From an uncultured bacterium (GTDB lineage: Bacteria; Desulfobacterota; GWC2-55-46), in NCBI GenBank assembly GCA_905339405.1, contig CAJPGC010000040.1, positions 1 through 46,548 on the forward strand: DNA of 46,548 nt, read 5' to 3'. Numbering within the stretch: the stretch's first letter is position 1; each line of letters begins with the position of its first letter. The notes under the pieces are model-generated. The model saw only the letters and a list, made by a program, of their open reading frames with translations. It was not told the DNA's origin and made no database searches. Shown piece after piece: positions 13,577-46,501 of this stretch. The position numbers were made by a program, and so were the translations under genes.

Positions 13577-13584
13577 TCCTCTGT

Positions 13585-14859: not shown

Positions 14860-14876
14860 TAGGAAAGGTGTCTCGA

Positions 14877-15329
14877 ATGTTTTCAAGAATTAAAAAAATT
14901 TATTTGGCCTTAAGTGCCTCAAAGAGAATAATGAAATCAGAACAGTTGTTTGCTTTTGGTAATTATGATGAAAGCTTAAAAGTGCTTCTTTCGACAGAGA
15001 AGTATTTCTGTCATAAACTTTATAGATATCATCTTAATCTTGGAAAACTTATTGGAGCTGTCAAAAAAGATTATATTTCTGCAATTAAGGAATTGGATAT
15101 TGCTATATCTCTATTAGAAAGTAAAGACTTTGAAGATAGGAATACAAGCGAGTACCTTCTTTGCTGGGCAAAATATTTGAAGGCTGAATACCTATCTCAT
15201 CTAAATAGGACAGAAGATGCTGAAAAAATGCGCAAGGAAAGTGAAAAACATTCATTTCAAGTCTCCAAAGTTTCAAAAGATTTTAGAAAGACTTTTATGA
15301 TGCCTTGGCATCCAGATTTTCATGTTTAA
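14877..15329 (+). CDS. Soluble TPR-like protein, putative immunity partner of tip B
   Basis: This 150-residue protein starts with ATG at 14877, 8 nt after AGGAAAGG, and follows the tip B stop by 17 bp; GTG at 14868 is an upstream alternative. It is all-helical by appearance. Pairs of helices such as SEQLFAFGNYDESLKVLLS and AIKELDIAISLLES resemble tetratricopeptide repeats, and the protein is basic and AT-rich. It has no membrane segment, so this partner would be cytoplasmic, unlike the two membrane partners of the other tips. The immunity role is inferred from position only. Confidence 0.55.
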   Translation: MFSRIKKIYLALSASKRIMKSEQLFAFGNYDESLKVLLSTEKYFCHKLYRYHLNLGKLIGAVKKDYISAIKELDIAISLLESKDFEDRNTSEYLLCWAKYLKAEYLSHLNRTEDAEKMRKESEKHSFQVSKVSKDFRKTFMMPWHPDFHV

Positions 15330-22859: not shown

Positions 22860-24059
22860 GTGAACCTTGCGCGTCTGCGTCTTATTTCGCGTAAAATCGA
22901 GTCGCTTTCTACCTATCTTGCTTCTCATGTCGTGGGAAGGCTTTTTACCAAAGGCGCGCCGCTGCCAGCCGGGCCGCTTAAGGTGATGGTATTCAAGCTC
23001 GACAACGCCGGAGACGTCGTCCTCTCCTCGCTCTTGATGCCGCGCGTATCCGATATGCTTGGCGGGGCAGAGGTCGTATATGTTGTTAAGGAAGGCTTCG
23101 GCGGCCTTCTGAGCCGGGTGGATTGCGTCACAGGTGTAGTAGAGGTGCCCTCCGGCCTGGGCCACTGCAGCAGGGTAGGAACACGAGAGCGGGAAGGAAT
23201 GCGCGAATCCAGAAAGATAATCAGGAAGGCCGTAAAAGACTTCAGGCCGCATATAATGGTAGACCTCAGGCCGACCTCGCTTGGAAATTACGCCGCTTTG
23301 CTTGGGCGCGTTTACGGGACTCGGCGGCGCGTAAGCCTGGAAGGGCAGCGGCTCAGTGAGATTTTCGGGGCTGGTAAGGCCATGAAATGGCGGCGGCATG
23401 AGGTCGAGAGTTTCTGCGAGGCCTTCGAGGACGCAGGTGTTTTTTCCAAATGCGAAGATTACAGGTCGAGGCTGACTTTCTGGAAATGCGACTCTGAAAG
23501 CTGGCCTACTCCGTCCGGCAGATATTTTCTCCTGCAGCCCGGCGCAGTCTGGGAGTACAAGAAGTGGCCCGAGCGCAATTACGCCAGCCTTATCGACTCT
23601 CTAGCCGGGCTTTACCCGGCACACTCTTTTGTCCTCGCCGGAAGCGAGGCGGAAAAAGATGTATGCGCGAGGGTACGAGAGATGACGGGCAGGAGCGCTC
23701 GGGAAAGGGTTTGGAACCTGGCCGGAAAGACGACAATGACCGAGCTCGTCGATATCGTCAGCGGCGCGGATATGGTCATAGCAAACGACTCAGGGGTGGC
23801 GCACATAGCCGGGGCCGCTGGGGCGAGAACAATTGTCTTCTTCGGTCCGTCCTCACCGGAGAGGTTTAAGCCTTTGTCCTCGCGCCAGGAAAGGATCAAG
23901 GTCTTCCACCACAGGCTCTCATGCAACCCCTGCGACCAGGACCAGTGCCGGGAAGGCCCGCACACATATTGTCTTGGCCGCATAAACCCGAGGGAAGTCC
24001 TCGAACACATCAGGTCTTCCCTCGGCGAAAGAAACGCTCAGGCGCATATGTCTTACTGA
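22860..24059 (+). CDS. Glycosyltransferase family 9 (ADP-heptose:LPS heptosyltransferase-like)
   Basis: This 399-residue protein has the GT9 N-terminal signature FKLDNAGDVVLSS (residues 45-57). The C-terminal donor-binding half contains LLQPGAVWEYKKWP and ANDSGVAHIAGAAG followed by FFGPSSPERF. GT9 enzymes such as RfaC/RfaF transfer heptose from ADP-heptose to LPS core or other glycans at the cytoplasmic face of the inner membrane. Here it opens a polysaccharide operon, so the acceptor may be that repeat unit and not LPS core. The start is GTG 22860, without a strong Shine-Dalgarno. A Cys-rich stretch near the end (CNPCDQDQC) is common in this subfamily. Confidence 0.88.
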   Translation: MNLARLRLISRKIESLSTYLASHVVGRLFTKGAPLPAGPLKVMVFKLDNAGDVVLSSLLMPRVSDMLGGAEVVYVVKEGFGGLLSRVDCVTGVVEVPSGLGHCSRVGTREREGMRESRKIIRKAVKDFRPHIMVDLRPTSLGNYAALLGRVYGTRRRVSLEGQRLSEIFGAGKAMKWRRHEVESFCEAFEDAGVFSKCEDYRSRLTFWKCDSESWPTPSGRYFLLQPGAVWEYKKWPERNYASLIDSLAGLYPAHSFVLAGSEAEKDVCARVREMTGRSARERVWNLAGKTTMTELVDIVSGADMVIANDSGVAHIAGAAGARTIVFFGPSSPERFKPLSSRQERIKVFHHRLSCNPCDQDQCREGPHTYCLGRINPREVLEHIRSSLGERNAQAHMSY

Positions 24060-24196: not shown

Positions 24197-25441
24197 ATGG
24201 CTTTTCTTCAAAATGTTAAAAAAACTAGAAATGGCGATAGCAGGATACTCCTCGTGACGCCACGTTTTCCATTTCCTGTAATAGGCGGGGACAAGCTCAG
24301 GGTCTATAACATCGTCAAGTACCTTTCAAATTATTACAGGTTCACCCTGGCTTCGCTCTACTCGACCGACGAGGAGGAGAGTGCTGTGCCGGAGCGCGGC
24401 ATCTTTGACGAGGTGCACCGTTTTCGTCAGCCGCTTCTCGCGTCCTATTGCTACACAGCCGGAAGCCTCATGAAGGGCGGCTCACTGCAGTGCGGTTATT
24501 TTTATAACCCCAGGCTTAAAAAGCTCATCGACCGCTCGCTTTCCGGGCACGACCTCGTGCTGGCGCACCTCATACGCGTTTCCGGGTATCTCAGCGGCAA
24601 GGGTATTCCGAGCATATGCGAGATGACGGACGCGATATCCATGAACTATGAAAGGGCAGGGGCTTCCAAAAGGCGTTCCCTGAAGAAGTTCATCTATAGG
24701 TTCGAGCATAAGCGTTGCCTTGCCGCCGAAAGGAGCTGTCTTTCATCTTTTGACGGCTGCGTTGTCGTATCGCCGAACGACAGGGATTATCTTGCCGCCA
24801 GGTACCCGGAGTATTCGCGGAAAATGCACGTCATACCGAACGGGGTCAGGGTGGAGGATTTTCCATACAACAGAGAGAAGGTCTCCCCGGAGAAGATAGT
24901 CTTCATTGGTAATATGAGGACGATGCAGAACGCGGACGCTGCCTGTTATTTCGCAAGGGAAGTCTTTCCTGCGATAAAGCAGAGCCGTCCGGGCGCTTCC
25001 TTTTGGGTCATCGGGGCTGACCCTGGAAGGGAAGTCCGCTCGCTTTCTTCCATCCCAGGGGTAGTTGTGACTGGAAAGGTGGAAGACGTAAGGGCAATAT
25101 CGCACGACGCGGCCGTGAGCGTGTGCGCGGTCAGGGTCGGAGCAGGCATACAGAACAAGGTCCTCGAGTCGATGGCCATGGGCATCCCTGTCGTGACGAC
25201 GTCAGTCGGTGCGGAAGGGCTGCTGGCGAGAAACGGGGTGCACTTCACCGTGGCGGACTCTCCAGGGGAGTTTTACTCTGGGGTCATGGAGATACTGTCA
25301 GACAGGTCAAAGGCGGCTTTTCTTTCAAAAAACGCCAGGAGCCTCGTGGAAGAACGATATTCTTGGGAAGGAATGCTCCGTTCATACAGGGAGCTCGTCG
25401 AAAGCGTATTGAACGGGGCAGGGGAACGGGCGCGGAAATGA
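24197..25441 (+). CDS. GT4 glycosyltransferase, PEP-CTERM/exosortase-system type
   Basis: This 414-residue GT-B enzyme has an N-terminal VTPRFPFPVIGGDKLRVYNI motif and a C-terminal KVLESMAMGIPVVTTSVGAE motif (E-x7-E region, residues about 320-345), the pattern of TIGR03087-type sugar transferases. These occur with exosortase/PEP-CTERM exopolysaccharide loci. It transfers a nucleotide-activated sugar to a growing lipid-linked repeat at the cytoplasmic membrane; the sugar is unknown. Its ATGA overlap with the flippase gene at 25438 shows translational coupling. A PEP-CTERM protein is encoded at 45343-46371, supporting the association, although no exosortase lies in the window. Confidence 0.85.
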   Translation: MAFLQNVKKTRNGDSRILLVTPRFPFPVIGGDKLRVYNIVKYLSNYYRFTLASLYSTDEEESAVPERGIFDEVHRFRQPLLASYCYTAGSLMKGGSLQCGYFYNPRLKKLIDRSLSGHDLVLAHLIRVSGYLSGKGIPSICEMTDAISMNYERAGASKRRSLKKFIYRFEHKRCLAAERSCLSSFDGCVVVSPNDRDYLAARYPEYSRKMHVIPNGVRVEDFPYNREKVSPEKIVFIGNMRTMQNADAACYFAREVFPAIKQSRPGASFWVIGADPGREVRSLSSIPGVVVTGKVEDVRAISHDAAVSVCAVRVGAGIQNKVLESMAMGIPVVTTSVGAEGLLARNGVHFTVADSPGEFYSGVMEILSDRSKAAFLSKNARSLVEERYSWEGMLRSYRELVESVLNGAGERARK

Positions 25442-26997
25442 CTTTTAACTCGTATGACATAGGCGGCGTGCCAGGCGCTGGCAGGAGGTTCGGCCGTAGG
25501 CTTACCGCCGTGCGGGAGAGTTTTTTTGGAAAGGCCTTCGAGCAGGTCTTCATCCTTTCCGCCACGCACGCTTTAAGCGGCTTTCTCGTGCTCGGCACGT
25601 TCATCCTTCTGGCCAACAAGCTCGGCCCCAGGCTTTACGGAGAATTTACCTTCGCGGATTCGATCGTTTTTATCGGCGTACTCTGCTCTTCGCTCGGCAC
25701 TGAATATGTCGGCAACAGGGAGGTCGCAAGAGCCGGGGATACGACCGAACTCGTAAGCGGGATACTTATCCTCCGCACCCTTGCCTCGATAGTAGCTTTT
25801 TCCGTCCTGCTCGCCTGGACGCTGATATTCGTCGAATCAGAAAGCCTCCGTGCTCTAATGCTCATCTCTGGCGGAGTGTTGCTTTCGGTGCCCGGCATAG
25901 CAGGCTGGTTTTTTCTGGCCAGGCAGAGGGTCGGGCTAGTCGCCCTTGTGACTCTCCTGCGGGAAGCAGCGTTCTTCGTGCCGGTACTTTTCATTCTCGA
26001 CATGATAGAGGATCCTGAGAGAAGGCTTATTTACGCCGCTGTTTTCTATCTCCTGTCGAAAGCCGCGTTCGCCGGTATTTTCCTTTTCAGACTCCTCATG
26101 GAAAACGGCTTCACGTTCAAAGTCAAAGCCGTCACATACAGGTACATACTCAAGGACAGTCTGGCTCTTCTTTACGCGTCCCTGGTGGCGACCGTTATGA
26201 TAAGCGTGCAGATATACATGCTGAAGCTCCTTAACGAGGAGGCCGCTCTCGGCGTGTACGGCGCCCTTTTTAAACAGATATTCTACATCCAGCTTTTGTC
26301 CCTCTCCTTCATAATGGTCTTTTTTCCGCTTCTCTCAAAGGCCTGGGTCGAAGACAGGAAGCGCTACGAGAGGCTTTCATCGGCACTCTCCGAACTTACG
26401 CTCGTCGTCGTTCTGCCGGTAGCCATGACAGGAGTTCTTTATCCGGACTACCTGATCTCGGTTTTTTTCACGGAAGAGTACGCCACTGGCGGCCTTACGC
26501 TCCAGATCCTGAGCCTTTCGCTCATACCGATGAGCTACGTCAGGGTCCTTACAACCGGGATACTCATAAGCATGGACATGACCTCTAAGATGTACTCGCT
26601 CGTGAATATCGCGCTCGCTGGAAGCCTCGTTACGTGCCTTCTCATATTCGCGTTCCCAGCGGCCGACGCTGGAGCCGCCGCATCAAGGCTGGCGGCTGAG
26701 TGCCTTTTTGCCGCAGTTTCCTACGCTGTTGTAGCCAAAAGAGTGCGCGTCTTGTCTGCAAGCGTCCTTAAATGCATCATACCTGCAGCGGCTGCGATGG
26801 TTATGGTCAGGGCGGTCCTTCCCGGTAGATTCGCTTTGACTGGCATCGCATTTTCATATTTTTCTTTTTTTGCCGTGTATCTTCTGCTCTTTTACAGTAC
26901 ACGCCTGGGAGAGTTGAAGGAGCTGTTGAGTGGCAACGGCTTGAGCGCTTGCCCAGGTTCGCATGAACAAATACTCATAGGAAGGGAAGAGAGATGA
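25438..26997 (+). CDS. wzx: Wzx-like lipid-linked oligosaccharide flippase
   Basis: This 519-residue polytopic protein of the MATE/MOP polysaccharide-exporter superfamily has about 12-14 TM segments and starts with the ATG that overlaps the preceding stop (ATGA at 25438-25441). The frame is open further upstream to 25123, but that part lies inside the GT4 gene. Family features are HALSGFLVLGTFILLANKLG, YGEFTFADSIVF and GTEYVGNREVAR in the first two helices. Its role is to move the undecaprenyl-linked repeat unit from the cytoplasmic to the periplasmic face. The gene overlaps the following radical SAM gene by ATGA at 26994-26997. Confidence 0.85.
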   Translation: MTFNSYDIGGVPGAGRRFGRRLTAVRESFFGKAFEQVFILSATHALSGFLVLGTFILLANKLGPRLYGEFTFADSIVFIGVLCSSLGTEYVGNREVARAGDTTELVSGILILRTLASIVAFSVLLAWTLIFVESESLRALMLISGGVLLSVPGIAGWFFLARQRVGLVALVTLLREAAFFVPVLFILDMIEDPERRLIYAAVFYLLSKAAFAGIFLFRLLMENGFTFKVKAVTYRYILKDSLALLYASLVATVMISVQIYMLKLLNEEAALGVYGALFKQIFYIQLLSLSFIMVFFPLLSKAWVEDRKRYERLSSALSELTLVVVLPVAMTGVLYPDYLISVFFTEEYATGGLTLQILSLSLIPMSYVRVLTTGILISMDMTSKMYSLVNIALAGSLVTCLLIFAFPAADAGAAASRLAAECLFAAVSYAVVAKRVRVLSASVLKCIIPAAAAMVMVRAVLPGRFALTGIAFSYFSFFAVYLLLFYSTRLGELKELLSGNGLSACPGSHEQILIGREER

Positions 26998-28145
26998 TAA
27001 AGGCGCTGAAAAACTATTTCCAGATAGACGGTGCTTCGAACGTCGACTGGAGGAAGTTCGCGTACCCGAGAAGGTTCTACAACGCCGTCAAATACGTACA
27101 CTACAGGAAAAGCCTGCCTGTCGAGGTGCCCTATTACCCGCTTACGGTAATGCTCGAGATTAGCACCTTCTGCAATTTCAAGTGCCCGGCCTGCGAAAGG
27201 GAGCTTTACAAGAAGGACACGGCTTCCACAGGGGGCCTTTTCAAGGAGAACGTAAAGCTTGAGGAAGTAAAAAAGCTCGCTCCTCTTCTGCCTTACGTAT
27301 ACAGCATATACCTTGTCGCAGGTCTCGGCGAGCCATTCATAAACAAAGACTTCTGGCCGATAGTGGAATTCCTCAAGTCCTTCGACGTGAAGATCGGGTA
27401 TTTCACGAACGCCTCCCTCCTTGACGAGGAAAAGATAGCCGAGACATTCCGCCGCCGCATAAACACGGTCCTTATCTCGATGGACACGCACGAGCAATCG
27501 AAGTACGAGATGGTAAAGGAAGGTGCTGACTTCGACCATACCGTGAAAATGATAAAGCTCTTCGCCGAGTACAAAAAAAAGCACAGCTCCACGCACCCGT
27601 TCCACCTCGGGCTCAACTACATCTTCAGGGCTGACAACTACGCCGACATACTCCCGTACCTCGACTTCGTTAAAGAACTCGGCGTCGAATACGTGCACTG
27701 TTCCTCTCTCATAGTCCATGTCGACGAGATGAAGGAATCATCGTTTTTCAAGGTGCCTGTTTCCAAAAAAAAGCAGGTCTTCGACCTTGCCAGGGAGAAA
27801 GCCGAGAGGCTCGGGATAGGGCTGCGCCTGCCGAACCTCGACATAGACAGGAAAATACGCTGCTGCTACCCGTGGCACGGCATCTCGGTCTTTAAGGGAG
27901 GCGACGTGGCGACCTGCCCGTACTTCAGGACTGACAGGGACTTCTATTACCACGTCGAAAAGGACGCTGGCCTCATTGAGGATAAAAGACGCGTAAAGAG
28001 CACCGTCATCGGCAATTACCTCAGGGAAAACATCCTCGATATCTGGAACGGGGAACGTATAAAGGAAATAAGAAAGGGCGAGCTCAGCCTCGAGTCCCAC
28101 GCATCTCCATGCGACTCATGCTATTACAAATTCCTGCTGCACTGA
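26994..28145 (+). CDS. Radical SAM/SPASM protein 1
   Basis: The 383 residues include the radical SAM cluster motif CNFKCPAC (C60, C64, C67), which binds the [4Fe-4S] cluster that cleaves S-adenosylmethionine. YLVAGLGEPFINKDF is the GGEP-like strand, and a SPASM-type C-terminus has CCYPWHGI, ATCPYF and PCDSCYY, likely holding auxiliary Fe-S clusters. It starts inside the flippase gene (ATGA). SPASM enzymes modify peptides, but also sugars and other small molecules. There is no small precursor-peptide gene next to it, so a sugar or lipid substrate in this operon is plausible but unproven. It is one of four such genes here. Confidence 0.88.
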   Translation: MIKALKNYFQIDGASNVDWRKFAYPRRFYNAVKYVHYRKSLPVEVPYYPLTVMLEISTFCNFKCPACERELYKKDTASTGGLFKENVKLEEVKKLAPLLPYVYSIYLVAGLGEPFINKDFWPIVEFLKSFDVKIGYFTNASLLDEEKIAETFRRRINTVLISMDTHEQSKYEMVKEGADFDHTVKMIKLFAEYKKKHSSTHPFHLGLNYIFRADNYADILPYLDFVKELGVEYVHCSSLIVHVDEMKESSFFKVPVSKKKQVFDLAREKAERLGIGLRLPNLDIDRKIRCCYPWHGISVFKGGDVATCPYFRTDRDFYYHVEKDAGLIEDKRRVKSTVIGNYLRENILDIWNGERIKEIRKGELSLESHASPCDSCYYKFLLH

Positions 28146-28154
28146 GAATGGAAT

Positions 28155-29279
28155 ATGAAAGATAAGTCCGGTGTCCCGGAAAACCTCATAGTCCACCTGT
28201 CGCTTACCAACGCGTGCAACTTCCTTTGCACCATCTGCCCCTCCATGCGCGAGGACAAAAAGTACGCGCGCCCGAAGATGACAAAAGGCCTCCTTGACAA
28301 GGTGCTGGATGAAGTCCTGCCATTCACCTCCACCATGATACTCGGCGGCAACAGTCTGGGAGAGGTGACGACGCACAAGGAGTTTACGCGCTTTCTGCAC
28401 TCTCGATTCAATGGTGACGGCAGGATGAAGATGCGGCTTACGACCAACGGGTACAGGCTCGGAGAGCTCGCAGGTGAGATAGCGGAAAAGTTATCTTTCG
28501 TGTCGGTCTCTTTCGACGGGGCGACCGCCGCCACCTACGAGGCGATAAGGAAATACCCGTATGAGAAGATAACGGGCAACATCAGAAAGCTTACGTCAGA
28601 GCGCTCGAAGCGCGCCAGCGCACTTAAGGTCGGCCTCGGCATGACGCTCCTTTATGACAACCTCCATGAGCTGCCCGCGCTTGTTGAGCTTGCAGCTGAC
28701 ATGGGCGTCGATATGGTCGCGGGTAGCTACTTCATCCCAAACTTCCAATCTGAAAGGTACCAGTGCCTATACTACCACCAGAAGTACTCTAACGAGGTCG
28801 CGCACCTGGCTGAAGAGCGCGCATCGAGGCTCGGCGTTGAGTTCAGGATGCCGAGGTTCAGGATGCCCGGACAGAGACTTTCAGTGGAGGAGACGAGACC
28901 TGTATACGAGACTTGCCCCCTGCCATACGGGATGGTGAATATCTCTGAGACAGGTATCGTGACGCCATGCTGCGCAAATCCGACAATAATGGGCGACCTT
29001 AAAAGCCATAGCCTCGAGGAGATATGGAACGGAAAAAAATACCTGAAGTTCAGGACTGACGTCGGAGACAACCCGTTCTGCCGCATTTGCCATACTCCTG
29101 TCTATGGAGAGAGGGCGAGTACGGGAGTAATGCTTGACGCCTCCTACCAGATAAAGACAATAGGCACTGAACTGCCGTTGAGCCATGTGCTCCGTTCAGG
29201 GTTGATGAGGAAGTTTTCAGGTACAAAAGCAGGCTTGAGGGTAATAAGCCTGGGTAAGGCTGCGGCAGGCAGAAAGTAG
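28155..29279 (+). CDS. Radical SAM/SPASM protein 2
   Basis: The 374 residues start 9 bp after the previous gene. The cluster motif is CNFLCTIC (C21, C25, C28), almost at the N-terminus, so the N-terminal extension seen in proteins 1 and 3 is missing. MILGGNSLGEVTTHKEF follows as the GGEP-like region. The SPASM part contains ETCPLPYGM, GIVTPCCANPT and CRICHTPVYG, with the usual SLEEIWNGKKY between. Sequence similarity to protein 1 is limited to the motifs, so the two are not simple duplicates and may act on different substrates or positions of one glycan. A function is not assigned. Confidence 0.88.
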   Translation: MKDKSGVPENLIVHLSLTNACNFLCTICPSMREDKKYARPKMTKGLLDKVLDEVLPFTSTMILGGNSLGEVTTHKEFTRFLHSRFNGDGRMKMRLTTNGYRLGELAGEIAEKLSFVSVSFDGATAATYEAIRKYPYEKITGNIRKLTSERSKRASALKVGLGMTLLYDNLHELPALVELAADMGVDMVAGSYFIPNFQSERYQCLYYHQKYSNEVAHLAEERASRLGVEFRMPRFRMPGQRLSVEETRPVYETCPLPYGMVNISETGIVTPCCANPTIMGDLKSHSLEEIWNGKKYLKFRTDVGDNPFCRICHTPVYGERASTGVMLDASYQIKTIGTELPLSHVLRSGLMRKFSGTKAGLRVISLGKAAAGRK

Positions 29280-29409
29280 CTGGCGTGTAAGTTTTCGGGC
29301 GGACATGAGCCGCCCTGACCAGGGATGGAGGAATACAGCGACGTGGAAAAGCACAAGTACAAGCAACCAGGAAAATTCACTCTCGACAGAAATGAAAACC
29401 GGAGAGTGC

Positions 29410-30471
29410 ATGGAAACTGTGTTGCCGTTTTTGATCTCCTTTTTGATGCAGCTGCTGGCTCTTAAATACTTCCGCAGACATTCGATGTGCATGGACAACG
29501 AGAAGATTTTCAAGCCGCAAAGAATACATTCAGTGCCAACGCCGAGGGCCGGAGGGCTCGGCATTTTCGCCGGGTCGCTCATAATCCTCGCGATGGGGCG
29601 GCCCGAGGGCGCCTTGTTCGTCCTCACGGCGCTTCCGGCATTTCTCATCGGTTTCGCGGAAGATTTGAGCTCGAGCGTCAACCCGCTGCAGCGCCTCCTC
29701 ATAATCGCAGGAGGAGCTGGCCTGGGCACCGCTTTCATGGACGCTATCATAACCGATATCGGCCTTTTCACCCTGCCTCTTGCGATAGCGATTCCGTTCA
29801 CGGTCTTCGCTGTCACAGGGGTCGCCAACGCGATAAACATAGTCGACGGGATAAACGGGCTCGCTTCAGGTGTGTCGTTGATAACCTTCTTTTTCCTTGC
29901 GCTCACATCGTATGTTTTCGGCGACCACCTGGTATTCGGTATATCTGTTGCCTTGCTCGCCGCGACCGGCGGTTTTTTCGTAATGAACTTCCCCAAGGGC
30001 AGGATATTCCTAGGTGACGGAGGTGCGTATTTTATCGGTTTCGCCATCGCTGAGCTCTCCGTGATGTTAGTGAAACGCAACCCCGGCATCTCTCCTTGGT
30101 TCCCGCTCGCGCTCATGGCATACCCAGTAACCGAGGTCGCGTTCACGATCTTCAGAAGGAAGTACAAAAAGGGCTGCTCCGCGTTCATGCCGGACAGGGC
30201 GCACCTGCACAGCCTTATCTACAAGCGCGTCACGAAAAGCAACTACCGCACGTCATATGTTTTCTGGCTCATGGTCATCCTATTCGACTCCGTAGCTTTT
30301 TCATTCCTTAAAAGCTCTGTTGCCATGATAGCTGTGCTTTTTTCGTTCGTGCTCCTTTATATTTCGCTTTACTGCCGCCTTGTAAGGTTCAAGTCCTCAG
30401 GCGTTCTTAAGCCAATCCTGGGGTTCGTTAGGCACCAGGGCGCCAGGCCGATTTCCAGGACGAGCCCATGA
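29410..30471 (+). CDS. WecA/MraY-family polyprenyl-phosphate sugar-1-phosphate transferase
   Basis: It is 353 residues long with ATG 29410 (preceded by GGAG at 5 nt spacing); an upstream in-frame ATG at 29305 would add 35 unrelated polar residues. It has about ten TM helices. Motifs are IHSVPTPRAGGLG (residues 39-51), FAEDL (82-86), INIVDGINGLASG (142-154) and RIFLGDGGAYF (198-208), with D85, D146 and D203 as the likely Mg-binding acidic residues, and a C-terminal DRAHLHSL loop. These enzymes start glycan assembly by transferring a HexNAc-1-phosphate from a UDP-sugar to undecaprenyl phosphate. It is thus the likely initiating enzyme of this operon. Confidence 0.87.
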   Translation: METVLPFLISFLMQLLALKYFRRHSMCMDNEKIFKPQRIHSVPTPRAGGLGIFAGSLIILAMGRPEGALFVLTALPAFLIGFAEDLSSSVNPLQRLLIIAGGAGLGTAFMDAIITDIGLFTLPLAIAIPFTVFAVTGVANAINIVDGINGLASGVSLITFFFLALTSYVFGDHLVFGISVALLAATGGFFVMNFPKGRIFLGDGGAYFIGFAIAELSVMLVKRNPGISPWFPLALMAYPVTEVAFTIFRRKYKKGCSAFMPDRAHLHSLIYKRVTKSNYRTSYVFWLMVILFDSVAFSFLKSSVAMIAVLFSFVLLYISLYCRLVRFKSSGVLKPILGFVRHQGARPISRTSP

Positions 30472-30511
30472 CGAAGCGGCGCGGGGATAAACAAAAAACG
30501 GGGGAAGGTCA

Positions 30512-31792
30512 ATGAAAGAATTCGCGAAACATATAGTCTCAAGGGCATCAAAATCGAGGCCCTACGTAAAATGGCTCATGGAGCAGACAACCGGCATTGT
30601 TAGAAAGCGCGGCTTGAAAGCGGGCCTCAATTACCTTTGGACGATAACATTCTCCATAGAAGATGGTGTTGGCCTCCTATATCCCCTCTGGTCGAAAAGG
30701 CCGGGGCTCCTCAGATACCCCGGGCGAATAGAGGTGGAGGTAACGACGAAATGTTTCCTGAAGTGCCTTAAATGCGAGCAGGTCTACTGGAACGAGCCGC
30801 AGAAGAGTCTTTCTGCAAAACAAGTCGAGCAGGTTCTTGACGAGTTCCCCAGCCTCAAGGCTATAAGCCTCTCCGGCATCGGCCACAATTACCAGAACCC
30901 GGAGTACGAGAAGATATTGAAGCTCTGTTGCGACAGGTCTTTGTATGTGCAGTTCTTCGACACGTTCCTTCTCATAACTCCTTCGAGGGCAAAAAACCTC
31001 GTTGACTGGGGCGTGACAAAGGTCTGGATGTCCATAGACGGGGTGGACGAGAAAACGGTCGCTCTTCAGCAGCAGGGGTCGAGTTATAAAAAGGTCGTTG
31101 AGAATGCCAAGTTCCTCACGAAGTACAAGTTGGAGAAAAAATCGAGGTTCCCCGAACTCGGTTTCACGGTCGTCGTGACAAAATACAACATCGACAGGTT
31201 GCCGGAGTTCCTCGACCTTTTTGACGACATAGTCGGGGACTCACAGAGGATGATAATGGTCCAGTTCATAAGGCTTATCGGCTTCGAGGAGAACAAGCAC
31301 CTCATGCCGGACGCGTCTCTCCTGAAAGACGCGAAGGCCGCTGTACTTGAGCGCGCGTCCAGGTTCAAGCGCGAGAGGTTCAGGATGAACTTCACACATT
31401 TCAAATACAACGTCGAGGACAACAAGGAACCCATTGAGTGCTGCGCCTCGTGGGCTGTCCCGTTCATCACCGTTGACGGCGTGGTATACCCGTGCTGCGG
31501 GCTTACCGAAGGAAATCAGAGAAAGCATATCGACAAGTCCGCGTTCGGTAATATCTTCAAGTCGCCGTTCAGGAAGATATGGCACGGTGACGGGTACAAG
31601 GACCTGAAGGCAAGGATCTCAAAAGGCGAATCTCCCGACATTTGCAGGATGTACAGGCCATGCACGGCTTTCAAGACCGGACCCGCGCTCCGGCAGATGC
31701 CTGTTGAACCCAGGCTTGATAACGTTCCAGTTGCCTCAGGAAACACCGCTTACGAAAGACCCGCAAGGACCGCAGAGGGCAATGAGGCTTGA
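30512..31792 (+). CDS. Radical SAM/SPASM protein 3
   Basis: The 426 residues follow GGGGGAAGG, which ends 4 nt before ATG. An N-terminal extension of about 70 residues precedes the cluster motif CFLKCLKC (C81, C85, C88). ISLSGIGHNYQNPEY replaces the usual GGEP strand. The SPASM region carries IECCASW, VYPCCGLTEGN and CRMYRPCTAF, with FRKIWHGDGY between. It is the longest of the four and its spacing pattern differs from 1 and 2. It overlaps the start of the beta-propeller gene by 11 nt (31782-31792), showing coupling. The substrate is unknown. Confidence 0.88.
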   Translation: MKEFAKHIVSRASKSRPYVKWLMEQTTGIVRKRGLKAGLNYLWTITFSIEDGVGLLYPLWSKRPGLLRYPGRIEVEVTTKCFLKCLKCEQVYWNEPQKSLSAKQVEQVLDEFPSLKAISLSGIGHNYQNPEYEKILKLCCDRSLYVQFFDTFLLITPSRAKNLVDWGVTKVWMSIDGVDEKTVALQQQGSSYKKVVENAKFLTKYKLEKKSRFPELGFTVVVTKYNIDRLPEFLDLFDDIVGDSQRMIMVQFIRLIGFEENKHLMPDASLLKDAKAAVLERASRFKRERFRMNFTHFKYNVEDNKEPIECCASWAVPFITVDGVVYPCCGLTEGNQRKHIDKSAFGNIFKSPFRKIWHGDGYKDLKARISKGESPDICRMYRPCTAFKTGPALRQMPVEPRLDNVPVASGNTAYERPARTAEGNEA

Positions 31793-32828
31793 AGAACTGA
31801 AAAAAGGAAGATGGGAAGTGCTGCCCGGCCCCGTGCTGCGGCCTTCCGCGAACGGCTGGGACAACCACTCGAGCATGACGCCGGTCGTCTTCAAAAACGC
31901 AGACATCGGGCTTGCGATGAGCTCCAGGTACGGGATGCTCTACATCGGTTCAGGCAGGGGGTCTAGCGCGTGGGGCGTTGGCTACGCGACCTCAGGCGAC
32001 CTTTTCAGCTGGACGAGGCATCGCGGCAACCCTGTCCTTATGCAGGCCGACGGCGCAGGGCTTCAGCTTGACGCTCCATGCCTCGTGCGCTCGCAGGATG
32101 GTTATACTCTCATATGCGAGGAAAAAATGGTTTCAGGAGGGGCGGCAACAGCCTTGAGGGAGCTTTTGCCGCCAGGCACGAAAAGGGTCTTGCGGCAAAT
32201 ACGCAGAACACTCGGCTTAGAGAGGCCTACTGTCGTAAACCACGCTTCCGGCCGTTATTTCGTCAGCTTCTCCTCGAAGGACATATTCAACTGGGACAGG
32301 CAAAGCAAAAAAGTGGTCTTTGACAAGGGCTCCGAAGGCGCTTTCGACGCTGAAGGCGTCTTTTCACCCCAGGTCTACAGGTTCGGCAGGGATTATCATC
32401 TTTTTTATGGCGGAACGGACGGCCTGAAGGCCTATACAGGGCTTGCGATAAGCCGGTCGTTGGGTTCACGGTGGAACCGCGCTTCCATAAAGCCGGTACT
32501 TTCGCCCGGGGCCAGGGGCGATTGGGACGAAGTCAACGCGCTTATCGTAAGCGTCATGAAGCTTGAAGACGTTTACTGCGCGTTTTACGAAGGCGAGGAC
32601 AATAAAAGAAGATACAGCATCGGCATGGCCTGGTCTGAAGACCTTCTGAACTGGACCAAATGGGAAGGGAACCCGGTCATTATGCCTGGCAGGGCCCCTT
32701 ATTGCGAACACATGGTCTGCGGGCCGAGGGTCTTTGCCGAAGGCAACGATCTTTTCCTGTTCTTTAACGCTCACGGCAGGGACATGCGCGGGGCCTGCGG
32801 CATGGCTGTCTTCAGGAGGGACAGATGA
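31782..32828 (+). CDS. Five-bladed beta-propeller glycoside hydrolase-like protein
   Basis: It is 348 residues from ATG 31782 (inside the end of the previous gene); the frame is open to 31704 but that overlaps the radical SAM coding region. Repeated blades are recognisable by VGYATSGDLFSWTRH, LAISRSLGSRWNRA and IGMAWSEDLLNWTKWEG, with acidic residues at QLDAPCLVRS, FDAEGVFSPQ and WDEVNALIVS. This is the layout of GH32/43/62/68-like and GH130-like folds. No signal peptide is present, so it would be cytoplasmic, unusual for a polymer-degrading hydrolase. It may be a phosphorylase-like or carbohydrate-binding protein acting on precursors. Confidence 0.75.
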   Translation: MRLEELKKGRWEVLPGPVLRPSANGWDNHSSMTPVVFKNADIGLAMSSRYGMLYIGSGRGSSAWGVGYATSGDLFSWTRHRGNPVLMQADGAGLQLDAPCLVRSQDGYTLICEEKMVSGGAATALRELLPPGTKRVLRQIRRTLGLERPTVVNHASGRYFVSFSSKDIFNWDRQSKKVVFDKGSEGAFDAEGVFSPQVYRFGRDYHLFYGGTDGLKAYTGLAISRSLGSRWNRASIKPVLSPGARGDWDEVNALIVSVMKLEDVYCAFYEGEDNKRRYSIGMAWSEDLLNWTKWEGNPVIMPGRAPYCEHMVCGPRVFAEGNDLFLFFNAHGRDMRGACGMAVFRRDR

Positions 32829-33688
32829 ACGGCGGCACTGTTACGGGATGGGAGCTTATGAAGTACAGCGTCTCTCTTGGGCTCGGCTACTACAGGCGGC
32901 GGGCTGGAAAGGTATTCCACCGGGAAGCGTTGAGGAGAATACTTACCCCTATTAACGTCAGCAGGTGTTATGAGTTCAGGAGGACTTATGAACTATTGAT
33001 GCCCAGGAAAAACGAGCTGGTCTTCGACCTCTCGAGCCCGAAGCTTTTGAGCCATTTCCTGAGCGAGAGAAGCGGCTGCAGGGTAGTGACAGCGGACATC
33101 AATAAGCAGGAGGTCTCGGATTGGAAGACCCTTACCGGCAAAAGACGCAAGCTCCCGTCGTGGGTAATAGCTGACGGCGTTAACCTCGGTTTCAAAAACG
33201 ATACTTTTGACAAGGTCTACTCCATCTCTGTCCTCGAGCATATCCCCGGGGAAGGAGACAGCAGGACTATGGCCGAGCTGGCGAGGGTGCTGAAGCCGGG
33301 CGGCAGGCTGGTCATAACTGTGCCTTATGCCGGGAAGTACAGGAGTGAGTGCATCGAAGAAGACGTCTACAACCTGCACAACGGAAAACGTGGGACTTTT
33401 CACTGGTCGCACTTCTATGATGAGCCTTCATTGAGAAAAAAACTTATCGAAAGCTCAGGACTTGCCCTTGAAGGCGTGTACTTCGGTTACGGGCCGGGCT
33501 CTGCGCTCTGGAAAAGCATAGAGCGGATGGGAAGGTACGGCTTCCCGCTGTGGATATTCTCGACGCTTGTCGAAAAATACGGGCTCAGGGAAGCGCGGTT
33601 CCAGCCGGCCCTACTCGAAGACGACCAGTTCCTGGCAGCTGTTGCGGTACTGAAAAAGGAGAAAAAAAATGAACCTTCAGCGGCTTAA
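32825..33688 (+). CDS. SAM-dependent methyltransferase (class I)
   Basis: The 287 residues start in an ATGA overlap with the previous gene. Rossmann-type motifs: LVFDLSSPKLLSHFL...VVTADI (motif I and acidic ribose-binding residue, about residues 62-88), WVIADGVNLGF, DKVYSISVLEHIPGEGD, and LARVLKPGGRLVITVPY. The family methylates many small molecules; in this setting a sugar of the repeat unit or its lipid carrier is the natural guess. Motif I lacks the usual GxGxG (it reads DLSSPK), so it is atypical. It overlaps radical SAM gene 4 by 20 nt. Confidence 0.82.
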   Translation: MNGGTVTGWELMKYSVSLGLGYYRRRAGKVFHREALRRILTPINVSRCYEFRRTYELLMPRKNELVFDLSSPKLLSHFLSERSGCRVVTADINKQEVSDWKTLTGKRRKLPSWVIADGVNLGFKNDTFDKVYSISVLEHIPGEGDSRTMAELARVLKPGGRLVITVPYAGKYRSECIEEDVYNLHNGKRGTFHWSHFYDEPSLRKKLIESSGLALEGVYFGYGPGSALWKSIERMGRYGFPLWIFSTLVEKYGLREARFQPALLEDDQFLAAVAVLKKEKKNEPSAA

Positions 33689-34793
33689 CATCACGAACCT
33701 GAGGCGCGGCCTCTATTCCGTATATAACTGGTTGCCTTACAACGTAAACCGTCTGACCCCCTTTCCGGTCGGCAGTTTCATAATCAACATCTCTCGCGAA
33801 TGCGAGATGCGCTGCATGATGTGCAACATCTGGCAGAACAGGAAAAGCGAGTACACGGGAAGGGCCCTGGACGCTCATACACTTTCTGGAATGCTTGGTA
33901 ACTCCACCTTTCTAAAAAAAATGCCATATGTCGTAATGACAGGTGGAGAGCCGTTCCTGAGAAAGGATTTCGGCGACATACTCGAAACTGTGCTAACTGC
34001 CCCTCACGTCAGGAAAGTCACGATAGGCACGAGCGGTTTTCTCACCAGGAAGATACTCTCGGACGTTTCGAGGTGCCTTGAGAACACAGGCAGAAAAAAG
34101 CAGCTTGCGCTTCAGATATCCCTGCAGGGGGTAGGTGAGGTCCAGGACAGGATAAAAGGCAAACCAGAGGCCTTCGCCAGGGTGCAAAAGACTGTAGCGG
34201 AGCTCAAAAAGCTGTCCGATAAGTTCCCCGGGAGGCTCCACCTGTATATCTACTCGGTGCTTCAGGAGCAGAACAAGGAGACGTTCGAGAAGACGTACGA
34301 GTTCGCCAGAGACAACGGGGTTGGTTACACTTTCGGAATAATCAACAACCTGAGCTACAACATGAACAGTTCGGAAGGGTACACAAAGGCGCTTATAAAC
34401 GATTCAGACTTCAAGAGGCTCGAAAAACTCTACTCGTTTTACGGCGTCCTGAAGAGCTGGTCTAGGAAAGGGTTTACACAGCAGACAACCGGGCTTCGGT
34501 GTTTTGCGGCGTACAGCTCGTTTTTCCTCGATTACGACGGCAGTGTCTTCCCGTGCCTGCACACGTCCACGCTCAAGGGCTTCAAGATGGGTAACATTTT
34601 CGATGCGGATTTCGACGACATCTGGAGAAAAGCTTCCAGGGCGAGGGCGCTCACCAAGACCTGTTCCATAGACGAGTGCCTTCAGGGCTGCGACAGATCG
34701 GTAGTTAAGATGCAGTACTTTGTCCAGGATATGGTCTGCCGGGCGGCAACTCTGAACAGGTACAGCCTTCTTAAAGCGAAGGGCATACTGTAG
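33669..34793 (+). CDS. Radical SAM/SPASM protein 4
   Basis: The 374 residues have AAGGAG 7 nt before ATG, inside the methyltransferase gene. The cluster motif is CEMRCMMC (C45, C49, C52) followed by NIWQNRKSE, then VMTGGEPFLRKDF, a perfect GGEP motif, and LQISLQGVGEVQDRIKG. The SPASM-like end has LRCFAAYSSFFLDYDG, VFPCLHTS and CSIDECLQGC. It is closest to the general MoaA/SPASM consensus of the four. It is the last gene of the operon and meets the convergent polymerase gene 42 bp later, with no clear terminator in between. Confidence 0.88.
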   Translation: MNLQRLNITNLRRGLYSVYNWLPYNVNRLTPFPVGSFIINISRECEMRCMMCNIWQNRKSEYTGRALDAHTLSGMLGNSTFLKKMPYVVMTGGEPFLRKDFGDILETVLTAPHVRKVTIGTSGFLTRKILSDVSRCLENTGRKKQLALQISLQGVGEVQDRIKGKPEAFARVQKTVAELKKLSDKFPGRLHLYIYSVLQEQNKETFEKTYEFARDNGVGYTFGIINNLSYNMNSSEGYTKALINDSDFKRLEKLYSFYGVLKSWSRKGFTQQTTGLRCFAAYSSFFLDYDGSVFPCLHTSTLKGFKMGNIFDADFDDIWRKASRARALTKTCSIDECLQGCDRSVVKMQYFVQDMVCRAATLNRYSLLKAKGIL

Positions 34794-34835: not shown

Positions 34836-36155
34836 TTATGGAATTTTAAAGGACAGGGATCCTGCCGGCAGCCTAAGTAAGTGGTAGATTAGAGCGTAGG
34901 CCATGAAAAAAGCCGCTATCGAAACGGCCGTATCGAAGACTGTTATGAGCATAGGTCCGCCGGCGATAAAAGTCTGATACTGCTGGAAAAGAAGAAAATA
35001 GACCGGCGTGCCGATAAGTTTTTTCCTTCCGTTGACCAGAAAATCCCCGAACCTGACGAAATAAAAAAAGAACAGGAACGTGCCTGCCATCGTGACCGGG
35101 AGCCCGAAGTTCGCGTAAAGCTGCCCGAAAAGAGAAGTTGTCGCCTGCATGAGGTACTCGTTATGCCCGAGTATCTTCTCGAATATCATGGCGTCGAAGT
35201 TCATCTCATGCAATTCCATGGGGATTATAGGAGCTAGTCCGAGTTTCAGGAGTATGTTGCTGAAATCGAACCAGAGCCCTTCGCCGTACAAATAAGGCTC
35301 GGTCACTCCGTAGTTGGTGAGTACGTATATGAGCCCTTCCGCAGCCGATGTTGTAGACCTCATGAATATAAAGATAAGCACGTCGGAGAGCCCTTCAGAA
35401 TTCTGGATGACCGACAGGACGAATATTGAAAAGACAGCCCCGGCCGCCATGAAGGGCAGGAGGCTTGTGAATCTTACCCTCGTTGAGAGGCCCACGAAGC
35501 ATGCTGACCAGAGAAAAAACGAGATGACCGTAGCCTTGTAACCCAGAGAGGAGAACAGGACGAGTATGACAAAACCCATCAGCAGCCAGCCTTTACCGCC
35601 GTACCTTATGAGCTCGCGTATGCCGGTTTCCATCCCTCTGCCTCCGGCCGCTTTTATCCTTTCGCGGCCTGCATGGAAGCAATAGAGGATAGAGGAGTAG
35701 AACAGGGTCAGAAGGAAGTACCGTACGAACCTCGTCAGCACCCAGCCGCCCCCCTGTGAAAAGGTCACTTTGGCTATATTCGGCTCTTCGGAGAGGATAG
35801 GCACGCCTTTTTTCAGAAACATCGCGCTGACGCCTGCCAATGCTATGAGTACCGCAAGTTTGAAGGCCAATGCGTGAGTCCTGGCGTTTATGTCGTTTAC
35901 TTCTATTTGATATTGCGGACCAGTGCCGTACTTTTTTTTCCCGAGGATGCTCCCTGCGTAGACCATCAGTAATATCAGACAATAAAGTGGCGTCAATTCC
36001 GCGTTGTCAGATATCGATATCTGAATGCCGAGCAGGAACGGGAAAAGACCCGCAGCCATGGAGATAATGACAGGGTGAAGAATGTTCCTGGACGCGACCA
36101 TGAAAAAAAAGAAAAAAGGCATCGCGATAAGGAGGATGTAGTTTAATTCTGACAT
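34836..36155 (-). CDS. wzy: Wzy-like O-antigen/exopolysaccharide polymerase
   Basis: This 439-residue protein is very hydrophobic, with about 11-12 TM segments and a large periplasmic loop (about residues 265-345, containing TSAAEGLIYVLTNYGVTEPY and FDFSNILLKLGLAPIIP). This is the topology of oligosaccharide repeat-unit polymerases. Sequence identity in the family is low, so the call rests on topology and on the next two genes (SLBB exporter and Wzz-like). It would join undecaprenyl-linked repeat units in the periplasm. It is last in a three-gene minus-strand operon, 46 bp after the SLBB gene. Confidence 0.75.
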   Translation of the reverse strand: MSELNYILLIAMPFFFFFMVASRNILHPVIISMAAGLFPFLLGIQISISDNAELTPLYCLILLMVYAGSILGKKKYGTGPQYQIEVNDINARTHALAFKLAVLIALAGVSAMFLKKGVPILSEEPNIAKVTFSQGGGWVLTRFVRYFLLTLFYSSILYCFHAGRERIKAAGGRGMETGIRELIRYGGKGWLLMGFVILVLFSSLGYKATVISFFLWSACFVGLSTRVRFTSLLPFMAAGAVFSIFVLSVIQNSEGLSDVLIFIFMRSTTSAAEGLIYVLTNYGVTEPYLYGEGLWFDFSNILLKLGLAPIIPMELHEMNFDAMIFEKILGHNEYLMQATTSLFGQLYANFGLPVTMAGTFLFFFYFVRFGDFLVNGRKKLIGTPVYFLLFQQYQTFIAGGPMLITVFDTAVSIAAFFMAYALIYHLLRLPAGSLSFKIP

Positions 36156-36201: not shown

Positions 36202-38970
36202 TTAAAAAGTTACGATAAGAACGCCAGCCGTTACTGCTATCTGGTAGAGTATCTGCGTCAGGTCCTTTACCTCCTTTAGCCACAAACCCTTGTCGAGCTT
36301 TTCCGGCACGACAACGGTATCTCCAGGGTCGAGTTTTGAGGAGACGAAGCTGCCTGTGGTGCCAAGCCATGAGCTGCCCTTGCTCATGGCCGTACCGTCG
36401 GTCTTGAGGACGAAAATCCTTCCCTTGTCTGCCTCTCCGTTATAGCCCCCGGCTTTCCCGATGTAGCTGGAGATGGGCTCTCCGTTTTCGAAAATAAAGG
36501 CAGCGGGGTTCTGGACCGCGCCCATAACCTGGACCTGGGTCGGCCTGAGCGGCACGAAAAGCGTGTCTCCGTTCTCGAGTGCCACGTCATAGTTCGAATA
36601 TTCAAACTTTTTGACCTCTTCGAGCTTCATCGTTATCCTGCCCTGCGCCTCAGCTGCCCTCAGCCGTGTTAGCAGTTCCTTTTTCATCACCAGAAAGGCC
36701 TGTGCCTGTCTTGCCCCTGACTCGTCGATGGAGCCCAAAGCCATGCCGCTGGCGTCTGAAAGGAGCCTCATCTCGAGCCTGTTTATCGATTCTTCGATAT
36801 TTTTTTGCTGCAGCTCCCTCACGGACTCTCTCGTAAAGATGGCCCCCTTAAGGTATGCTTCTTCGGTGAAGCCGCCAGCCCTTTTGATGACGCTGCTAAG
36901 GCGTTCGCCCTTTTTGAAGACATATTTGCCCGGATACCTGACTTCTCCCTTGAGCTCGATGTACTGCTGACTGCGCCAGTCCGTCATCTCCCTCACGAAA
37001 AGACTGTCATAAGGCTTTACCGGCGCGTTATGCTCATTGTCTCCTCCGAGCGCCTTTTCGAGGTCTATAATCCTGTAGCTCACTTTAGAGGTACTGCCGT
37101 CCTCGATCTCGTACGTTGCGAGCTCTGCCTCTTTCATGTATGCCGAGTCCTTCAGCCCGCCGCCGGCGAAGACGAGGTCCCTTACCCTCATGTTTGCGGC
37201 ATAGGTATACTCACCCGGGTTGTTCACCATCCCGTATATCAGGACGCTTTTTTCTGGCCCAGTCTCAAGCGCCGAGTGTATGCGCACCACGTCGGAGTCC
37301 TCAAGCACGGGGTTCTCGGCCGCGTCTCCCCCAAGCGCCTTGTTAAGGTCGTGTCTCGAGAGAGTAACCTCCTGAGTGAGCCTGTCTTTTCTGTAAAGTT
37401 CGTACTCCCCGTAGGACGCTTTTTTGGTGAGGCCTCCGGCCAGCAACACGAGGTCTTTTACGGTAAGGTTCCTGTCCATGTTGAAAAGGCCGGGCTGCCT
37501 GATCTCTCCTTCTATCCGGACGGAGGGGCGTTCCCTGAACGTCCATGTGGAGAAGAGGTAAACGGAATCCAGCGGCAGCAGTTGGCGGTTTTCTTCCTTG
37601 TCACCGCCGATTAGCGCTCCGGGGCTGAACGGTATGACCATCGTGTTGAGTTCCGGCGTGAGCCTTTTTATCGCGCCGTAGGAGAGCTCGGTGTCTTCAA
37701 GGAGGTCAGAAAAGCCTGTTATGAGGTCTCCTAACTTCATGCCTGGCTTCAATTCATACTTGCCGGGCCTCTTGACGTTTCCGTTGAGGTAGACGGCGTT
37801 TGTGTCCTTTCCTGTTATTGAAAGAACTTTTACGAGGTCGCCGTCCTTGAGCATGAACGACTTTGCCTTGCCAGCGTCGCTTGCGTTTATGTCGGCCACC
37901 ACGCGTGTTTTGTTGCCTTCAATCCTCTCGACTTGGACCTGCTGGGTGTAAGCCTCGGGCACTATGCCTCCGGCGAGCGAGAGCGCCTCTGAAAGGCTCG
38001 TCTGGCCCTTCATCTCATACAGTGCAGGCCTTTTCACGTTTCCGGCCACTCCTGCTACAGCCCCTGTTACCGGCACGAATACGACGTCTCCGTTCTTGAG
38101 CCTCAAGTCCCCTGTTTTGTCGCCTTTCAAAAGGAGGTCGTAGAAGTCGATCTGGCGCGGTTTTTCGCCTTCCCGCCTCAGCTCTATTTTCCTGAGAGAA
38201 CCGATTGAAGCCGTCCCCCCGGCGGACATCAGCGCGTTTGAGACGGCAGAGGCCGCGCTTAACTTGTGGGCCCCCGGGCGCGCGACCTCGCCGAGCACGA
38301 AAACCTGTATGCTCCTCAAGCGCCCCATGGTAACGGAGGCCTCGGCGCCGATGACAGTCTCGATTTTTCGTGTTATGAGCTCTCTGACCTGGCCGTAGGT
38401 CAGCCCGTTCACGACGACTGTGCCTATCATCGGGATGCTTATGGTACCTTCGCGAGTGACGGGAAGGATATGTTCGCCGTTGGCCCTGCCCCAGAAGACA
38501 ACTCCTATCTCGTCTCCGTACCCGACAGGGTAATCGGCCGATACGGGAAGGGTTTCCAGAGCGGCCGCTTCTGAGCCGCTGAAAATGCCCTGTCCGAACA
38601 GTTTTAAATTCGCGGAGAGAACAGGGTCGTGGTCTTCAAGTGTAAACCGCTCGAAAAGGCCCGGTTTTATTGACTCCTCGACAGGAACTTCTTTTTTATT
38701 TTCTTCGTCTTTTTCTTCGTCTTTTTCTTCGGCCTGTACGCCATTGCCTGACGCTTTGGTCTCAGGCTGTTTTTTTTCGGTTTGTTTGTTTTCAGGCTTA
38801 TCGCTTTTTACCTCGGGGCAGGGGACGCCGTACTTTTTCGCGGCGTCTTTATAAGGACCTTCACATGGGTCGTCGGCCTCTGTTTTCGAGGCTGAACTGC
38901 CAGCGAGAAAAGCGCTCATGAGTAAAACCAAAAAAAACAGCAGGGCCGGTTTTTGGGTCTTTTTTCTCAT
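36202..38970 (-). CDS. SLBB-repeat polysaccharide export protein (Wza/KpsD-like)
   Basis: This 922-residue protein has a Sec signal peptide (ALLFFLVLLMSAFLAGSSAS; no lipobox Cys). A Lys/Glu-rich linker (about residues 60-105) follows, then a Poly_export domain (YPVGYGDEIGVVFWGRANGE, about 148-220). Seven SLBB-type modules follow, recognisable by G-V/N-x-x-PG-x-Y/H...AGG (e.g. GEVARPGAHKL, GNVKRPGKYEL, GEIRQPGLFNM, GMVNNPGEYTY, GEVRYPGKYVF). A hydrophobic helix ends the protein (LYQIAVTAGVLIVTF). It would form the periplasm-spanning and outer-membrane channel for the polymer. Wza has far fewer SLBB modules, so this one is a long variant. Its start overlaps the Wzz-like gene end by ATGA (38967-38970), with GGAGAG just upstream. 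Confidence 0.9.
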   Translation of the reverse strand: MRKKTQKPALLFFLVLLMSAFLAGSSASKTEADDPCEGPYKDAAKKYGVPCPEVKSDKPENKQTEKKQPETKASGNGVQAEEKDEEKDEENKKEVPVEESIKPGLFERFTLEDHDPVLSANLKLFGQGIFSGSEAAALETLPVSADYPVGYGDEIGVVFWGRANGEHILPVTREGTISIPMIGTVVVNGLTYGQVRELITRKIETVIGAEASVTMGRLRSIQVFVLGEVARPGAHKLSAASAVSNALMSAGGTASIGSLRKIELRREGEKPRQIDFYDLLLKGDKTGDLRLKNGDVVFVPVTGAVAGVAGNVKRPALYEMKGQTSLSEALSLAGGIVPEAYTQQVQVERIEGNKTRVVADINASDAGKAKSFMLKDGDLVKVLSITGKDTNAVYLNGNVKRPGKYELKPGMKLGDLITGFSDLLEDTELSYGAIKRLTPELNTMVIPFSPGALIGGDKEENRQLLPLDSVYLFSTWTFRERPSVRIEGEIRQPGLFNMDRNLTVKDLVLLAGGLTKKASYGEYELYRKDRLTQEVTLSRHDLNKALGGDAAENPVLEDSDVVRIHSALETGPEKSVLIYGMVNNPGEYTYAANMRVRDLVFAGGGLKDSAYMKEAELATYEIEDGSTSKVSYRIIDLEKALGGDNEHNAPVKPYDSLFVREMTDWRSQQYIELKGEVRYPGKYVFKKGERLSSVIKRAGGFTEEAYLKGAIFTRESVRELQQKNIEESINRLEMRLLSDASGMALGSIDESGARQAQAFLVMKKELLTRLRAAEAQGRITMKLEEVKKFEYSNYDVALENGDTLFVPLRPTQVQVMGAVQNPAAFIFENGEPISSYIGKAGGYNGEADKGRIFVLKTDGTAMSKGSSWLGTTGSFVSSKLDPGDTVVVPEKLDKGLWLKEVKDLTQILYQIAVTAGVLIVTF

Positions 38971-40169: not shown

Positions 40170-40360
40170 GTTTTTTTAACGAGTCCATGAATTTGATGAA
40201 TTCCTGTTGATTTTGGAAATTATTGGACAAGGGAGCACTTTTCTGATATCTAACTAACAGAATACCTCTTTCAAGAAACCGCGCCATACCTGCCTCTTCG
40301 ACCTTCACCTCGACTCAATGCCTGTAGTTAATCAAGGATTTGTTACAATTCGGAGGTGCC

Positions 40361-42878: not shown

Positions 42879-42909
42879 TAAGGAGGTCCGCGTTCCACGG
42901 AGGGCATTG

Positions 42910-46371: not shown

Positions 46372-46406
46372 ATTGGCCCTCCAAAAATGTATTTGTTTTA
46401 ATAAAG

Positions 46407-46424: not shown

Positions 46425-46501
46425 GTCTGGGCCCAGGAAGCAAGTATCTGATTTTATGAGCTTTCCTGCTTTCTAGGTAGAAATAGCCAAATAAACTTTT
46501 G

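Follow-up and report, generated by a model that had tools for sequence, protein, structure and literature searches.

What do four different radical S-adenosylmethionine (SAM) enzymes act on when their genes lie together in one operon for a surface polysaccharide? The question is raised by a 46,548-nucleotide stretch of DNA (hereafter, the window; contig CAJPGC010000040.1 of assembly GCA_905339405.1) from an uncultured Desulfobacterota bacterium of lineage GWC2-55-46. In this window, the genes that we call rSAM1 (26994..28145), rSAM2 (28155..29279), rSAM3 (30512..31792), and rSAM4 (33669..34793), all on the forward strand, are interspersed with genes for a Wzx flippase, a WecA-like transferase, a five-bladed propeller protein, and a methyltransferase. 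Relatives of this gene set are found in sugar loci of unrelated bacteria, beside sugar enzymes and without a detectable peptide gene; the probable product of the operon is therefore a surface polysaccharide of an unusual kind, modified by radical chemistry. We consider sugar the probable substrate of the radical enzymes, and we favor, with similar confidence, a reading in which they tailor repeat-unit sugars in the cytoplasm, prior to flipping.

All four proteins exceed the curated Pfam cut-offs for the Radical_SAM and SPASM domains, with scores of 50.5 and 33.8 bits for rSAM1, 46.3 and 48.4 bits for rSAM2, 37.2 and 41.5 bits for rSAM3, and 55.3 and 40.2 bits for rSAM4, respectively. An earlier inspection without database searches (the sequence-only reading) had placed four such genes at these positions and had described the enzymes as strongly divergent; both statements held. 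The sequences of rSAM2, rSAM3, and rSAM4 are 23, 20, and 18% identical to rSAM1, and together with the phylogeny these values indicate separate lineages and not recent duplicates. The whole genome encodes ten SPASM proteins, and finding four of them within 7.8 kb has a P value of ~2e-5 under random placement, a model that ignores duplication. The CX3CX2C core motif is present in all four enzymes, as had been claimed; however, the full SPASM set of seven auxiliary cysteines, which serves two clusters, is not. Beyond the core motif, about four candidate ligands are available in rSAM1 (C290/C291, C308, C373, and C376), rSAM2 (C254, C272/C273, C309, and C312), and rSAM3 (C310/C311, C328/C329, C378, and C384), which makes these three look like twitch-type enzymes with a single auxiliary cluster. 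With six auxiliary cysteines (C278, C296, C332, C337, C341, and C357), rSAM4 appears to be nearer to a full SPASM enzyme.

The neighbors of the four genes were also as previously described. Pfam matches identified the Wzx flippase (PF01943, Polysacc_synt; listed at 25123..26997, with the start probably near 25438), the WecA-like polyprenyl-phosphate sugar-1-phosphate transferase (PF00953, Glycos_transf_4; 29410..30471, in an open reading frame (ORF) that opens at 29305), the GH32N-like propeller (PF00251; 31782..32828, start inferred, in an ORF that opens at 31704), and a class I SAM-dependent methyltransferase (PF08241, Methyltransf_11; 32825..33688), all on the forward strand. The tight coupling claimed for these genes is borne out by overlaps of 4 bp at 26994 and 32825, an overlap of 20 bp at 33669, and a gap of 9 bp at 28146, but the WecA-like gene is preceded by a gap of ~130 bp when the start at 29410, indicated by a sister species, is used. 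In this sister (G002, labeled Deltaproteobacteria SJ296 in GenBank), the order of the operon is kept; the radical SAM, WecA, propeller, and methyltransferase genes are 63-88% identical to those in the window, and the flippase is 67% identical.

Related loci were found in more distant genomes. In another genus of the same family (G023), four SPASM proteins, including relatives of rSAM1, rSAM2, and rSAM3, are encoded with three cobalamin-type radical SAM proteins, a propeller (44% identical), a flippase, a WecA-like protein, a short-chain dehydrogenase/reductase (SDR), a nucleotidyltransferase, and a DUF362 protein. A genome from another family of the class (G058) combines relatives of rSAM1 and rSAM3 with two cobalamin-type radical SAM proteins, a flippase, a propeller, a methyltransferase, a GT4 glycosyltransferase, an SDR, and a nucleotidyltransferase. 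The same gene set as in G058 occurs in one run in the complete genome of Candidatus Velamenicoccus archaeovorus (Omnitrophota), at ~956-967 kb of CP019384. The rSAM3 relatives of these two genomes are 74% identical and one of the cobalamin-type proteins 61%, values that point to horizontal transfer. The SDR is 69-72% identical among Velamenicoccus, G058, and G023; its best match is dTDP-glucose 4,6-dehydratase, and the nucleotidyltransferase matches AglF/RmlA, both below the cut-off. In rSAM3-clade loci from eight genera other than that of the window, GT4, nucleotidyltransferase, SDR, and cobalamin-type radical SAM genes recur; G058 is low in the count within 8 kb because its nucleotidyltransferase and SDR genes are farther away along the contig. 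Thus, relatives of the radical enzymes elsewhere adjoin genes for sugar nucleotides and glycosyltransferases, and not genes for ribosomally synthesized and post-translationally modified peptides (RiPPs). Glycan loci with multiple radical SAM genes recur in other lineages, so the operon in the window belongs to a broader group that seems not to have been described. A search of plasmids with rSAM1 returned only proteins that are 21-26% identical.

The genes for rSAM1, rSAM3, the propeller, and Wzx lie within 8 kb of one another in five of five genomes from two phyla, and rSAM1 forms the core of this conserved module. We surveyed 582 sampled genomes, 297 from the phylum of the window and 285 from Omnitrophota. 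The propeller family occurred in the window genome and Velamenicoccus only, and rSAM1 occurred in the same two, with weaker, paralogue-level matches in G319 and G363; the G363 protein falls outside the rSAM1 clade. Given this shared occurrence, the propeller is probably a partner dedicated to rSAM1. The propeller scores 28.7 bits against GH32N (cut-off 22.1), its homologues also pass the GH43 and GH130 cut-offs, and its nearest solved structures are anhydrogalactosidases, mannobiose phosphorylases, and GH43 enzymes; these relatives place it in a carbohydrate-enzyme fold class, with catalysis being putative. In the phylogeny, rSAM1 groups with sequences from G023, G058, and Velamenicoccus (support 0.999), rSAM3 belongs to a clade from ten genomes (0.971), rSAM2 groups with a G023 sequence (0.851), and rSAM4 with a relative from the same genus (G001; 0.995). 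The deeper nodes are poorly supported, and we therefore make no claim about the relations among rSAM1-4.

Two natural fusions link radical SAM domains physically to glycosyl transfer, although the fused domains may fall outside the rSAM1-4 clades. A 702-aa ORF of Velamenicoccus encodes GT4 domains fused to a radical SAM domain, without a SPASM match. A 3274-aa ORF of G319 (L079:6496-16320) combines phosphodiesterase, GT2, TPR, and methyltransferase domains with radical SAM and SPASM stretches, two of each, and the ORF that follows has four GT2 stretches. The Velamenicoccus fusion lies in a region (L081:3640-19448) with about eight radical SAM genes and genes for Asn-synthase-like, AMP-binding-like, and APH-like proteins. 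The genome of the window contains a second glycan locus (L096, G000:C30:84000-101000), where the neighbors of a relative of rSAM2 are a nucleotidyltransferase and three proteins of the C-methyltransferase type; in G005, G026, and G023, SPASM genes are likewise accompanied by a nucleotidyltransferase or methyltransferases. A thiamine-dependent E1/transketolase-like pair is encoded at a further site (L098, G000:C34:57000-75000), next to radical SAM proteins of the SPASM and cobalamin types; in G058 (L024), a similar pair adjoins a SPASM gene.

The sequence-only reading had reported no precursor-peptide gene, and our comparisons agree. The region contains 203 short ORFs; the ones lying mostly outside genes had no counterpart in the sister, and no short intergenic ORF was common to different genomes across ten related stretches. 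One small-ORF match (L025 with L026) was dropped, since both loci belong to one genome. A candidate small peptide in the gap at 29280-29409 was rejected, as its frame is broken in the sister by a 10-base insertion and a one-base gap; the conserved stretch directly before the start of the WecA-like gene looks regulatory. No Pfam match to a PqqD/RiPP recognition element (RRE) domain was found in the enzymes or their neighbors. In the structure model of rSAM3, the N-terminus consists of two helices and a short third one; the strands expected in a winged helix-turn-helix are missing, which makes it unlike an RRE in appearance.

Structure models were made for rSAM1 (mean predicted local distance difference test score 86.6) and rSAM3 (75.2). 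Both have the partial TIM-barrel fold of radical SAM enzymes, with Z scores of 24 to solved members; the best matches include SuiB, SkfB, BlsE, and DesII, with values close to one another. Against enzymes acting on sugars and related compounds, the rSAM1 model gave Z scores of 23.4 (BlsE), 23.3 (DesII), and 19.1 (BtrN). The SPASM regions of rSAM1 and rSAM3 are closest in sequence to that of BtrN, an aminocyclitol dehydrogenase.

In the reading that we favor, the WecA-like protein would start the repeat unit on the polyprenyl carrier, and the glycosyltransferases would extend it. As soluble enzymes of the cytoplasm, the four radical SAM proteins would each abstract a hydrogen at a sugar; an auxiliary cluster (in rSAM4, perhaps two) would then serve to complete an oxidation, dehydration, deoxygenation, or epimerization. 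The methyltransferase may cap the radical-modified product, while the propeller may bind, trim, or transfer the sugar made by rSAM1 and rSAM3. Wzx would then flip the unit, and Wzy, Wzz, and Wza would polymerize and export it. The occurrence of rSAM3 relatives beside a nucleotidyltransferase and an SDR favors a nucleoside diphosphate (NDP)-sugar, or its product, as the substrate of these relatives; the window, which has WecA and Wzx and lacks those two genes, favors sugars of the household pool that are modified either as NDP-sugars or once lipid-linked. The sequence-only reading had proposed several radical steps on a lipid-linked sugar, or the addition of an unusual group to the glycan: the glycan as substrate is supported by the sugar-related neighbors, the lack of a conserved peptide, and the glycosyltransferase fusions, but lipid-linked and NDP-sugar substrates are inseparable by sequence. 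The glycan part also withstood the refuting conditions set with that reading, as neither a conserved peptide gene nor a RiPP neighborhood was found at the related loci.

Several observations weigh against a sugar substrate or against extending the relatives' context to the window. Comparison of folds was rejected as a substrate test, because peptide enzymes (SuiB and SkfB) and sugar enzymes (DesII and BlsE) reach near-equal Z scores. None of the four proteins reaches an NCBIfam equivalog cut-off, and the BlsE model (TIGR04466) gives 25 bits with rSAM2 (cut-off 400). The loci in the window and the sister have no nucleotidyltransferase, SDR, or cobalamin-type genes like those of their relatives, and the best homologue of the SDR in the window's own genome is just 29% identical. 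The window rSAM3 is ~28% identical to other rSAM3 proteins, and its final cysteine pair is CX5C, as in the sister, versus CX2C in Velamenicoccus, G058, and G023; because of these two differences, its function may have shifted. The peptide searches covered intergenic short ORFs near the loci, not ORFs inside genes or elsewhere in the genome. This leaves room for the enzymes to be RiPP maturases whose precursor was overlooked or is encoded elsewhere, with the polysaccharide setting being incidental or the peptide being joined to the glycan. Most characterized SPASM enzymes mature peptides, and SuiB and SkfB are among the best structural matches. However, the best curated maturase match is to W_rSAM_matur, a model for metalloenzyme maturases, at 124 bits (cut-off 380), and RiPP models score lower still. 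The lack of a conserved short intergenic ORF in the sister and in related loci of different genomes, the lack of a PqqD/RRE match, the purely helical N-terminus modeled for rSAM3, and the sugar genes that neighbor the relatives in other phyla also speak against peptide maturation, which we regard as unlikely.

The substrate of the radical enzymes might instead be the lipid carrier, or a lipid or acyl group attached to the glycan, and not sugar carbons. The presence of a WecA-like enzyme without sugar-nucleotide genes in the operon would fit such a substrate, as would the tetraether synthase GDGT-MAS among the structural matches. Given that the relatives have nucleotidyltransferase and SDR genes, that the propeller is folded like carbohydrate enzymes, and that the radical SAM fusions are with glycosyltransferases, we consider a lipid substrate improbable. 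A greater, although still doubtful, possibility agrees with sugar as the substrate but not with a shared pathway: four independent tailoring genes, acting on different sugars, may have been gathered by shuffling. Relatives of rSAM2 and rSAM4 are found singly in other glycan loci, and only rSAM1 and rSAM3 keep constant company; yet all four genes have stayed together in the sister, and G023 also clusters four SPASM proteins, including relatives of rSAM1, rSAM2, and rSAM3.

The rest of the locus contains further components of a Wzx/Wzy system. A heptosyltransferase-like GT9 glycosyltransferase (22860..24059, forward strand; PF01075; sister homologue 64% identical) is followed by a GT4 glycosyltransferase resembling stp1 of PEP-CTERM/XrtA loci (24197..25441, forward strand; 254 bits, below the cut-off of 316.65). 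Downstream of rSAM4, on the reverse strand, are a multi-pass membrane protein that is a putative Wzy-like polymerase by its hydrophobic segments (34836..36155; family searches gave no match), a Wza-type outer-membrane polysaccharide export protein (36202..38970; EpsE/XrtA export models, 156 bits with a cut-off of 180), and a Wzz-type chain-length determinant (38967..39938). The WecA-like initiator and Wzx are thus identified through Pfam, and Wza and Wzz through matches below the cut-off, those of Wzz being weak. Another GT4 glycosyltransferase (40340..41617, forward strand) has a profile match and a 70% identical homologue in the sister. A PEP-CTERM surface protein is encoded nearby (45343-46443), and no exosortase was found among the window proteins scanned. 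A DUF362 protein of the window (42907-43782) was not counted as an electron donor, since no counterpart was seen at that place in the sister; in G023, the gene for a DUF362-ferredoxin protein (L025:7819-8949) immediately precedes that of the rSAM3 relative. In the first part of the window (103-15329), a 2274-aa ORF is followed by an RHS-repeat protein of 1376 aa (6964-11094) and an RHS fragment of 257 aa (11764-12537); several short ORFs after these may be broken RHS tails.

Both components of the proposed system are already known: radical SAM sugar enzymes from antibiotic pathways and Wzx/Wzy loci. DesII, BlsE, and BtrN combine, like rSAM1, a radical SAM core with a SPASM/twitch-type C-terminus and act on a sugar, a sugar-nucleoside, or a cyclitol; however, they belong to secondary metabolism and use NDP-sugars or small molecules, whereas here four genes lie in a surface-polysaccharide operon. 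The maturases SuiB, SkfB, PqqE, and AnSME share the overall fold of the rSAM1 and rSAM3 models but not the glycan neighborhood, and the window has no detected precursor peptide or RRE. With Wzx/Wzy exopolysaccharide loci, including PEP-CTERM/XrtA-associated ones, the locus shares the initiator, flippase, glycosyltransferases, Wza, Wzz, a putative Wzy-like gene, and a nearby PEP-CTERM protein. Typical loci of this kind diversify their sugars by SDRs, aminotransferases, and acyltransferases; here, the tailoring genes encode radical SAM enzymes. The propeller has profile matches to GH117, GH130, GH43, and GH32 glycosidases and phosphorylases; unlike these, it is a constant partner of rSAM1, and no hydrophobic export segment was seen.

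A literature search that left out most subscription journals found no description of radical SAM proteins as tailoring enzymes of Wzx/Wzy polysaccharides, a weak absence, nor of the two combined in a mobile, conserved cassette that has its own propeller. A bolder and rather doubtful reading is a horizontally spread pathway that relies on several radical enzymes, a dedicated partner with a glycosidase fold, and, in the relatives, cobalamin-type radical SAM proteins. These would remodel sugars while they are being attached to the lipid carrier, or afterwards, and would yield residues, carbon-branched or deoxygenated, of kinds unknown from bacterial polysaccharides. The cassette is present in Velamenicoccus, whose genome is closed and whose enrichment culture is covered by published metaproteomes (PMC12583861; PRIDE PXD025008), so that the product and expression of the cassette can be sought. 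If the favored reading is true, the use of radical SAM sugar chemistry for a bulk surface polysaccharide would give bacterial glycans a wider chemical range, and many unassigned SPASM proteins would gain a substrate class.

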